Positions 29,069 to 30,293 of a DNA stretch of 39,728 nt are shown here, piece by piece. This DNA comes from an uncultured Prochlorococcus sp. (GTDB lineage: Bacteria > Cyanobacteriota > Cyanobacteriia > PCC-6307 > Cyanobiaceae): positions 1 to 39,728 of the forward strand of contig NZ_CACMSM010000013.1 in the NCBI RefSeq assembly GCF_902616385.1. Reading direction: 5' to 3'. Within the stretch, counting starts at the first letter, position 1, and the number at the start of each line of letters is the position of its first letter. Below the pieces are notes generated by a model. That model was not told the origin of the DNA and did no database searches. It saw only the letters and a list, made by a program, of their open reading frames with translations. A program made the position numbers and the translations under genes.

Positions 29069-29653
29069 TTAATTTAAACCAATTTCTTTTTTTAGGTAAG
29101 GTGACATAATTTTGGCGGCTTTACCTCTACTTCCTAATTTATTTAGTTGTGATTGTGATAACTCACCGTAAACACAGTTAGCCTCTTTTACCCAAAAAAT
29201 AGATTCGAATTCCCCATTTTGATATTTGGGGTTCTTAAGAATTTCTCCCCAGCATATTCCTGTTGTATCTTTTACTAAGTTTCCTGAGGGATCGCACAAA
29301 ACCATGCAACTTATAAATCTTGCACTCCTATAAGGACTATCAGAAAGTTCATTAATTAATTTTTTAATTTTCTCATCATTAGTTTTGGCATATCGAGCAG
29401 AATAAATTCCTGGCCGACCATCTAAAACATCTACCTCAAGACCCGAGTCATCAGCTAATGACCAAGTTTTAGTCTCTAAAGCAGCTGCTTTTGCTTTTAG
29501 AAGTGCATTCTCAAAATACGTGTTTCCAGTCTCTTCGACATTTAAATATTCTGGTTGCTTCTGAACCTTTAAAGACAAAACATCCAGCATCTCAGAAATT
29601 TCAGATACTTTTCTTTGATTGCCACTAGCAATAGTTAGAACTGGAAAGTTCAA
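29069..29653 (-). CDS. rdgB: Non-canonical purine NTP pyrophosphatase (RdgB/HAM1)
   Basis: Hydrolyses dITP/XTP to the monophosphates, cleaning the nucleotide pool. The N-terminal TIASGNQRKVSEI, the central LADDSGLEVDVLDGRPGIYS with YARYAKT-like continuation, and GKAAKIMSPYLKK near the C-terminus mark the family. It has 194 residues, normal length. Only a TTG start (29653) is available, without a clear ribosome binding site. It is opposite in direction to the carboxysome genes and lies between csoS1D and csoS1, ending six bases from csoS1D. Confidence 0.93.
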   Translation of the reverse strand: MNFPVLTIASGNQRKVSEISEMLDVLSLKVQKQPEYLNVEETGNTYFENALLKAKAAALETKTWSLADDSGLEVDVLDGRPGIYSARYAKTNDEKIKKLINELSDSPYRSARFISCMVLCDPSGNLVKDTTGICWGEILKNPKYQNGEFESIFWVKEANCVYGELSQSQLNKLGSRGKAAKIMSPYLKKEIGLN

Positions 29654-29700
29654 AATAACAAATAAATTTATTGTGAATATTATCTTACTTCAAAGCTTGA

Positions 29701-29758
29701 TACGGAGACAGGAAAGGGTTGAACATTCCACACCTGTGTAGACAGGGCCTGCCTCGTA
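29701..29758. ncRNA. GC-rich foldable element between rdgB and csoS1 (candidate small RNA or leader structure)
   Basis: In a strongly AT-rich gap this segment is markedly GC-rich. GAGACAGG (29705-29712) pairs with CCTGCCTC (29748-29755) with one mismatch, extended by TAC/GTA beyond a bulged G. Inside, CCTGT (29733-29737) and ACAGG (29742-29746) form a hairpin with loop GTAG. It also contains the word TTGAACATTCCACA, found again in the csoS1 leader. Both strands fold; TATTAT at 29678-29683 could serve a plus-strand transcript, while a minus-strand one could be the rdgB leader. No family was recognised. Confidence 0.4.
29719..29732 (+). repeat. 14-base direct repeat, copy 1 (inside the GC-rich element)
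   Basis: TTGAACATTCCACA, identical to copy 2 located 231 bases downstream. Each copy is followed a little later by GTAGACA (29738-29744 here). Confidence 0.8.
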
Positions 29759-29829
29759 CGGAAATAACATAATGTAAATTTTTTCTTAACACAACAGTAT
29801 GTTTTGATGCACTAACTAATTTGCATAAG

Positions 29830-29861
29830 TATTGACATATCAATAGTACCAAGGGTGATAA
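29830..29861 (+). promoter_or_regulatory. Probable csoS1 operon promoter with a dyad over the -35 box
   Basis: TTGACA (29832-29837) and TGATAA (29856-29861) are spaced by 18 bases, which would start transcription near 29868 and leave a leader of about 115 bases. The perfect inverted repeat TATTGA-CATA-TCAATA (29830-29845) covers the -35 box and may be a regulator site. The rest of the 328-base gap between rdgB and csoS1 (29654-29981) holds the GC-rich element, the two 14-base repeats and AAGT/ACTT palindromes; no gene was found in it. Confidence 0.45.
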
Positions 29862-29949
29862 GTTTAACTTATGAATGATAGAAAAAACATTAATGGAGAT
29901 TTTGTCGAAAACGCTTGACTTATAAGTACTTAATGAAGCATTCTTCGAA

Positions 29950-29963
29950 TTGAACATTCCACA
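29950..29963 (+). repeat. 14-base direct repeat, copy 2 (csoS1 leader)
   Basis: TTGAACATTCCACA ends 18 bases before the csoS1 ATG. It overlaps a tandem ATTTAGT-ATTTAGT (29963-29976), and GTAGACA (29975-29981) runs up to the start codon, so the initiation region resembles the upstream element. Confidence 0.8.
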
Positions 29964-29981
29964 TTTAGTATTTAGTAGACA

Positions 29982-30293
29982 ATGGCTACAGAAACAATGG
30001 GTATCGCTCTCGGCATGATCGAGACACGCGGACTTGTACCTGCAATCGAAGCAGCAGACGCAATGACAAAGGCAGCAGAAGTTCGCCTTATTGGTCGTGA
30101 ATTCGTTGGCGGCGGTTATGTAACAGTATTAGTTAGAGGCGAAACAGGCGCAGTTAACGCAGCTGTAAGAGCTGGTGCTGATGCTTGTGAAAGAGTTGGT
30201 GACGGTTTAGTTGCAGCTCACATTATTGCTCGTCCTCATAGAGAAGTTGAACCTGCTCTAGGTAACGGTGAATTTCTTGGTCAAAAGGACTAA
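29982..30293 (+). CDS. csoS1: Major carboxysome shell protein CsoS1 (BMC hexamer)
   Basis: Forms the hexameric tiles of the alpha-carboxysome facets, with a small central pore. The 103 residues are a single BMC domain: MGIALGMIETRGLVPAIEAA, then AEVRLIGREFVGGGYVTVLV and the helix GAVNAAVRAGADACERVG, ending EVEPALGN. The start of the gene is richer in G and C than its surroundings, as often in very highly expressed genes. No ribosome binding site is visible before the ATG, which is odd for such an abundant protein. First gene of the operon. Confidence 0.97.
   Translation: MATETMGIALGMIETRGLVPAIEAADAMTKAAEVRLIGREFVGGGYVTVLVRGETGAVNAAVRAGADACERVGDGLVAAHIIARPHREVEPALGNGEFLGQKD

Follow-up and report, generated by a model that had tools for sequence, protein, structure and literature searches.

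The 39,728-nucleotide Prochlorococcus window (the whole stretch of DNA that was analysed) carries the same 14-base word twice between rdgB and csoS1, which raises the question of what a second copy of the csoS1 leader sequence is doing there. The word, TTGAACATTCCACA, occurs exactly at 29719-29732 and at 29950-29963, and the window holds no further match to it at up to two mismatches. The heptamer GTAGACA follows at 29738-29744 and again at 29975-29981, immediately 5′ of the csoS1 ATG at 29982. The initial annotation had reported this exact repeat, the position of its second copy 18 bases before the ATG and the heptamer after both copies, and each of these observations is borne out. The csoS1 gene (29982-30293, plus strand; Pfam PF00936, E 1.4e-26) encodes a carboxysome shell protein with a BMC domain and is followed by the rbcL reading frame, while rdgB, of the Ham1 family (29069-29653, minus strand; PF01725, E 1.1e-46), lies on the other side of the gap.

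We read 88 loci: the window's own, 20 of its genus (which we take the label HL to denote) and 67 of the wider family. The last group came from 66 genomes among the 195 of a 300-genome family sample that matched the 91-base element at E ≤ 1, a number that includes chance hits and many weak ones. One locus (L156 of G341), which has only the word, within an open frame, and lacks the stem, was dropped from the alignment. The alignment was rebuilt from 32 of the 85 rows, and then by a covariance model built from those 32. The segment at the first copy had been described as foldable. Its single-sequence fold of 71 nt is unremarkable on either strand (z -0.87 plus, -1.06 minus), and it is because of covariation among relatives, not folding energy, that we accept the structure. 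In the 32-row alignment 91.6% of the cells of the two helices are paired, and double-sided changes are seen in 7 of the 14 pairs. In the 85-locus alignment (A3), which is fitted to the covariance model and so biased towards the structure of that model, pairing is found in 97.1% of cells for the outer stem and in 88.6% for the inner helix. Among these 85 relatives double-sided changes affect 7/8 pairs of the outer stem and 12/14 pairs of both helices; the stem is therefore retained through compensatory changes. Sliding the structure along the same alignment lowers the paired cells to 20.8-61.3%, and for both helices together none of 500 shuffles reached any of five covariation measures. RNAalifold, run on the first, gappy alignment, did not find the outer stem. 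The element thus has the conserved secondary structure that is typical of bacterial base-pairing small RNAs. The model (R1) matches the window at 29703-29756 on the minus strand with 55.3 bits, and the predicted small RNA is about 60 nt long, occupying 29700-29759 of that strand with its 5′ end at 29759. In its outer stem 29748-29759 pairs with 29700-29712, including one bulged base and a 4-bp extension that was recognised by eye in the window's genus.

The strand of the putative transcript is indicated by two kinds of evidence. The first is a -10-like box, TATGTT (29766-29771, minus strand), 6 nt before the extended stem, preceded at a spacer of 17 nt by a -35-like box, TTGTGT (29789-29794), the latter being read from the window sequence alone. 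Outside the window's genus group, a minus-strand TANNNT precedes the stem by 6, 7 or 8 nt in all elements (65/65, compared to at most 5 in each of four control windows). In the genus itself the distance is 10 nt in 20/20 elements, which becomes 6 nt once the GUAC/GUAU stem extension (assigned by eye) is counted, and a further TANNNT is found 15 nt before the stem in the same 20/20. A promoter of its own on the minus strand, as base-pairing small RNAs have, is thus predicted by a TANNNT at a set distance in 85/85 elements. On the plus strand only 7 of the 65 non-genus elements have such a box within 4-9 nt of the stem. The second kind of evidence comes from wobble pairs: 62 cells are G-U on the minus strand, against 14 that would be G-U on the plus strand and C-A on the minus (the wobble of L111/L112 is on the plus strand). 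Folding energy could not be used as evidence of strand, being lower on the minus strand for 36 and on the plus strand for 46 of the 85 elements. The suggestion that the element is transcribed on the plus strand, as a decoy or part of the leader, is consequently disfavoured, and outside the genus we rejected it, given the lack of a recurrent box and the C-A mismatches that the wobbles would become. Within the window's genus a plus-strand start might still be used: 14/20 elements share plus-strand TANNNT boxes that precede the stem by 18 and 21 nt, and the single hit of a consensus promoter scan, no more than shuffles give, is a plus-strand site that shortly precedes the element (29655-29683). 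The same scan listed neither the proposed promoter of the small RNA nor that of csoS1.

The csoS1 promoter was recognised by its register in relatives. It consists in the window of TTGACT (29915-29920), 18 nt and CATTCT (29939-29944), and the general pattern is TTGAC with CANNNT. We compared 68 loci in which the element is adjacent to csoS1, 21 of them from the window's genus and sharing one word pair; they represent 67 genomes, L140 and L141 belonging to one. The latter two are inverted copies of a region at both ends of one contig (G151:C17) with the same letters in element and leader, probably an assembly artefact. In 68/68 of the adjacent loci the GAAC of the leader motif starts 37 nt after the first T of TTGAC, and in 68/68 an NANNNT precedes it by 7 nt, while a variable 28 to 33 nt separate the motif from the ATG. 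Because the promoter register is fixed and the distance to the ATG is not, the motif (29950-29963, plus strand) is best read as the predicted 5′ end of the csoS1 mRNA, with +1 at G29952. Further upstream, a dyad, GATAAG-TTTAA-CTTAT, occupies 29857-29872 and starts 58-59 nt before the csoS1 -35 box; similar dyads are present in 51/68 csoS1-adjacent loci. It lies between the two divergent promoters and is a candidate binding site for a regulator, perhaps, we assume, a LysR-type carbon regulator.

An RNA from the minus strand would be able to contact the csoS1 mRNA at two places. Site A of the small RNA, UGUGGAAUGUUCAA (29719-29732), is the complement of the predicted mRNA 5′ end, and site B, UGUCUAC (29738-29744), is the complement of the bases immediately before the ATG (29975-29981), so that the repeated GTAGACA is predicted to be a second pairing site. 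Pairing A was examined in 45 unique element-leader pairs from 87 loci, counting contiguous pairing up to 16 nt. The core GAACATTCC is present in 45/45 of these elements and 44/45 of the leaders, and the pairing extends over at least 14 contiguous nt in 28/45. Pairing B joins the part of the RNA before site A to the ribosome-binding and start region of the leader, and its letters differ between lineages: the window pairs UGUCUAC with GUAGACA, several other loci pair GCAUUGCC with GGCAAUG, a segment that takes in the start codon, and the Cyanobium types pair CCUGGAG with CUCCAGG. In shuffle tests that for both sites and for the whole duplex ignore relatedness, contiguous pairing A with the own leader averaged 13.49 nt, against 12.73 ± 0.16 with shuffled partners (0/2000 shuffles), pairing B averaged -10.49 against -8.93 ± 0.22 kcal/mol (0/5000; 77 unique pairs), and the whole duplex in 85 loci reached -34.1 against -30.3 in 20 shuffles. 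A control for pairing B that used the 3′ part of the element gave no signal (2864/5000). On average, then, both pairings appear to fit the own leader better than the leaders of other genomes, the own leader being the single best partner for pairing B in only 5/77 unique pairs (median rank 19). Changes at the edge of site A point in the same direction: of the transitions at positions 10-14, 21 keep a G-U pair and 4 break it, and where the element has T at position 11 (n=9) the leader carries T in 7 cases, A in 2 and never C, compared to C in 29/36 leaders of the other elements. The 21:4 bias could alternatively stem from a more constrained element together with AT drift in the leaders. Pairings A and B thus show the co-evolving complementarity to a target mRNA that is expected of a base-pairing small RNA, as judged by statistics that ignore phylogeny.

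Both copies are conserved well beyond the window. In the window's genus TTGAACATTCCACA is present in 140 of 151 genomes, and 122 are matched by a query of 651 bases that spans the gap and csoS1, a few of these matches extending over only a short stretch. In the family sample, GGTTGAACATTCCA occurs exactly in 149/300 genomes and 34/59 genera, and the covariance model matches at E ≤ 0.1 in 206/300 genomes and 47/59 genera, some hits near E 0.1 being weak, with none in the remaining 94. Outside the family, no match in a phylum sample of 244 was better than E 0.0054, stricter filters being used there. Among the matches listed, the core is found in named records of Prochlorococcus marinus MIT 9314, Synechococcus sp. 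UW105, UW140 and CCY 9618, and Cyanobium sp.; MIT 9314, UW105 and the one Cyanobium tested were confirmed by the model to carry the element. The same matches also include a few unrelated bacteria and one archaeon, five of which scored at most 20.5 bits with the model and were taken as chance. A copy of the element in phages is likewise not supported: 83/85 elements score at least 44 bits (the low-scoring ones being L166 with 24 and L170 with 28 bits), while the best of 12 viral contigs with the 16-mer scores 21 bits, over a region of the model that lacks the outer stem.

The family loci were picked by their match to the element, so that conservation of the element is partly built in; conservation of the leader in the 68 adjacent loci is not. 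In these loci GAACATTCCA is found in the element in 68/68 and in the leader in 64/68, the exceptions being L129, L150 and L152 (last A to C) and L163 (one internal change), all with the element intact. The copies are accordingly conserved together, a 9-base core being intact at both places in 67/68 loci and a 10-base core in 64/68. Their spacing is about 230 nt. In 19 of the other 20 loci the element is kept and the leader copy lies 1.6-2.5 kb away at the csoS1 start, so close spacing is not required; these 19 sbtA-type leaders, located through their own motif, are excluded from the 67/68 count. Of 20 genomes searched for the 12-mer GAACATTCCACC, 18 have exactly two copies. In five Cyanobium-like loci (L118, L123, L134, L195 and L196) sbtA was recognised by eye between the element and csoS1, joined in L195 and L196 by a small sbtB-like gene, also by eye, and here the small RNA is divergent to this bicarbonate transporter gene.

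We also followed the fate of the leader where the element is absent. We chose 24 candidate genomes by hand, not at random, from those without a match to the model or an exact GGTTGAACATTCCA. G193 had no csoS1 match and G205, G234 and G223 proved to hold both copies, leaving 20. Exact GGTTGAACATTCCA is missing in 20/20 of these (G184 has a weak model match, E 0.04), and no element-like word was found up to 5 kb upstream in the 19 genomes read, G254 being left out. In the 20 leaders GAACATTCC is kept in 7, differs by one change in 4 and by more in 9. It is therefore intact in 67/68 loci with the element and in 7/20 without it (Fisher P 8e-10, phylogeny ignored). In the leaders of L325, L326, L328 and L323 the GAAC is kept while the remaining motif is gone, and since GAAC often survives in element-free genomes, it may have a separate role in initiation.

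These observations bear on two other explanations of the repeat. That the element is a functionless, vestigial duplication of the csoS1 leader was the plainest alternative, given two identical words in one gap. It is now very improbable, since the element is matched by the model in 47/59 genera and by exact GGTTGAACATTCCA in 34/59, its stems are compensated, its conservation is long, and the leader motif is mostly lost along with it. A different proposal is that both copies are operators of one DNA-binding regulator, at the csoS1 start site and within the divergent transcript. The nearly palindromic GGGTTGAACATTCCACCC in the element and the fixed promoter register of the leader copy (68/68) would suit this arrangement. 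However, the left half of the palindrome is absent from the csoS1 leaders compared, the distance between the copies varies from 0.23 to about 2.5 kb, and DNA binding leaves the stem covariation, the G-U asymmetry and the tracking of the ribosome-binding site by site B unexplained; we regard an operator pair as improbable. A regulatory RNA from the minus strand, one of the options raised by the initial annotation, is supported instead by the -10-like box at a fixed distance, stem covariation, the G-U asymmetry, pairing with the own genome at two sites and co-loss.

The 3′ end of this putative RNA fits the small-RNA pattern less well. Base-pairing small RNAs have an intrinsic terminator or a defined 3′ end; here there were no terminator-like sites in 29500-30100, and TTTTT occurs within 30 nt 3′ of the stem in 8/85 elements and is absent in 77/85. 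Many small RNAs are processed rather than terminated, so the missing terminator lowers but does not exclude membership in this class. We infer that the RNA ends at the stem, and since no terminator was found, read-through into rdgB with processing is likely. The same findings would be expected if the element were a structured 5′ leader of the rdgB mRNA, either a cis element or a precursor, whose pairing with csoS1 couples the two transcripts, with rdgB perhaps as the regulated partner. Indeed, rdgB is downstream on the same strand, in the window about 46 nt separate the extended stem from the start of its reading frame, and an rdgB-like N-terminus follows within 260 nt of the element in 74/85 loci, and also, by eye, in the sbtA-type loci L118, L123 and L134. 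Against this, CACAATG, a possible separate -10 box of rdgB, lies within 130 nt after the stem in 28/85, with similar boxes elsewhere by eye, and both the match of site B to the csoS1 start and the degradation of most leaders without the element point to csoS1 as the target. We therefore consider an rdgB leader unlikely.

Further copies of the word were sought in the window's own genome (G000; 96.5% complete, 45 contigs), where a search at up to one mismatch returned four copies, all exact, and a control pattern none. Two are those in the rdgB-csoS1 gap, one precedes a sigma-factor gene and one lies within the reading frame of an ABC transporter, the last two products being recognised by eye. 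The sigma-factor copy (G000:C26:1515-1528; L004:1501-1514) is about 290 nt upstream of rpoD, assigned by eye, and 7 nt after TAGTAT. It is kept in most of 48 genus rows, with a conservation of 0.99 in the motif compared to 0.96-0.97 in the flanks. Because the flanks are nearly as conserved and 4/48 rows carry GAACATTACACA, rpoD is only a candidate as a further target of the small RNA. The ABC-transporter copy (G000:C6:9210-9223; L001), in reverse orientation at the 3′ end of the gene, reads in frame as LWNVQ and is probably due to chance.

Taken together, these data lead us to propose, with fair confidence, that the element is a gene, so far unnamed, for an antisense small RNA of about 60 nt, transcribed from its own promoter on the minus strand and pairing with csoS1 at two sites, most likely so as to repress translation. 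Its structure, strand, promoter position, two-site complementarity, fit to its own genome and co-loss with the leader motif are all supported by sequence comparison; that the RNA accumulates and represses is what we infer from them. According to this model, a divergent promoter would produce the RNA opposite the carboxysome operon that begins with csoS1 and rbcL, and the 5′ end of the RNA would be held in the outer stem from its first base. The segment GGAAUGUUC would seed at site A, on up to 16 nt at the beginning of the csoS1 mRNA, and the second segment would then zip onto the Shine-Dalgarno and start-codon region (site B), the bipartite duplex blocking ribosome entry on csoS1 and thereby setting the shell-protein output of the operon. 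Repression is the favoured sign of regulation because site B is located at the ribosome-binding and start region; protection of the mRNA 5′ end, and hence activation, is possible instead. More tentatively, the RNA might be a dedicated regulator as old as the cyanobacterial alpha-carboxysome lineage, pairing with the 5′ bases and the start codon of the mRNA at once, sharing its divergent control region with the operon or, in some genomes, with sbtA, and having added rpoD as a target in the window's clade.

Cyanobiaceae account for a large share of ocean carbon fixation, for which they use alpha-carboxysomes. If this more tentative reading is correct, one RNA would control both access to the 5′ end of the csoS1-rbcL mRNA and the start of its translation, and targeting of rpoD, if real, would tie carbon fixation to global transcription. 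The locus, strand, predicted 5′ end, target and two pairing sites are defined here in a form that can be mutated in cultured Synechococcus, and the family model could join Rfam.

At gathering score, Rfam 15 has no match in the window; within 29640-30000 two matches (E 1.9 and 2.9) fell far short of the gathering scores. Among RNAs described in picocyanobacteria, the gene probably overlaps cluster 87 of Axmann et al. (2005), which in Table 1 of that paper lies upstream of rbcLS in MIT9313 and WH8102 and is scored as a possible RNA element (PMC1242208). In the extract of the same paper that we used, the cluster is described with a conserved promoter and marked NT, and strand, target and family are absent (PMC1242208). 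Yfr10 pulled down csoS1 and csoS2 mRNA in MED4, according to the excerpt of PMC6778093. Yfr1 and Yfr10 are also small RNAs of Prochlorococcus, but with a different motif, in which UCCU was exchanged in the same excerpt (PMC6778093), and they have no Rfam match in the window. Identity with Yfr103, given as a multi-copy RNA of 290-328 nt in the extract of PMC5069720, was rejected, R1 having a single match of 54 bases in the own genome. Going by their descriptions, neither Yfr28 nor any RNA of the Yfr list (PMC2518516, Table 1) corresponds to the locus. An RNA at the rdgB-csoS1 locus is unnamed in the extracts of PMC2518516, PMC7368042, PMC5607370, PMC5069720 and PMC2663038, a statement whose scope is the articles without their supplementary tables. 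Full-text literature searches returned no title or opening of an abstract describing a csoS1-facing RNA, or a regulator RNA dedicated to the operon.

Two further systems invite comparison. RblR is a cis-antisense RNA of rbcL. It regulates RuBisCo in Synechocystis, according to the excerpt of PMC5306279. Unlike RblR, the proposed csoS1 RNA is structured and is encoded outside the transcript that it would target. The other system is OxyS, whose sequence is, to our knowledge, unrelated to that of the csoS1 small RNA. In Escherichia coli, OxyS contacts the fhlA mRNA at two sites, one of which sequesters the ribosome-binding site, as described in the extract of PMC2946933. The proposed csoS1 RNA resembles this pair in making two separate contacts on one mRNA, one of them at the ribosome-binding site, and it differs in that it is encoded beside its target operon, in an unrelated host, and would use the predicted 5′ terminus of the mRNA as one of its two sites.
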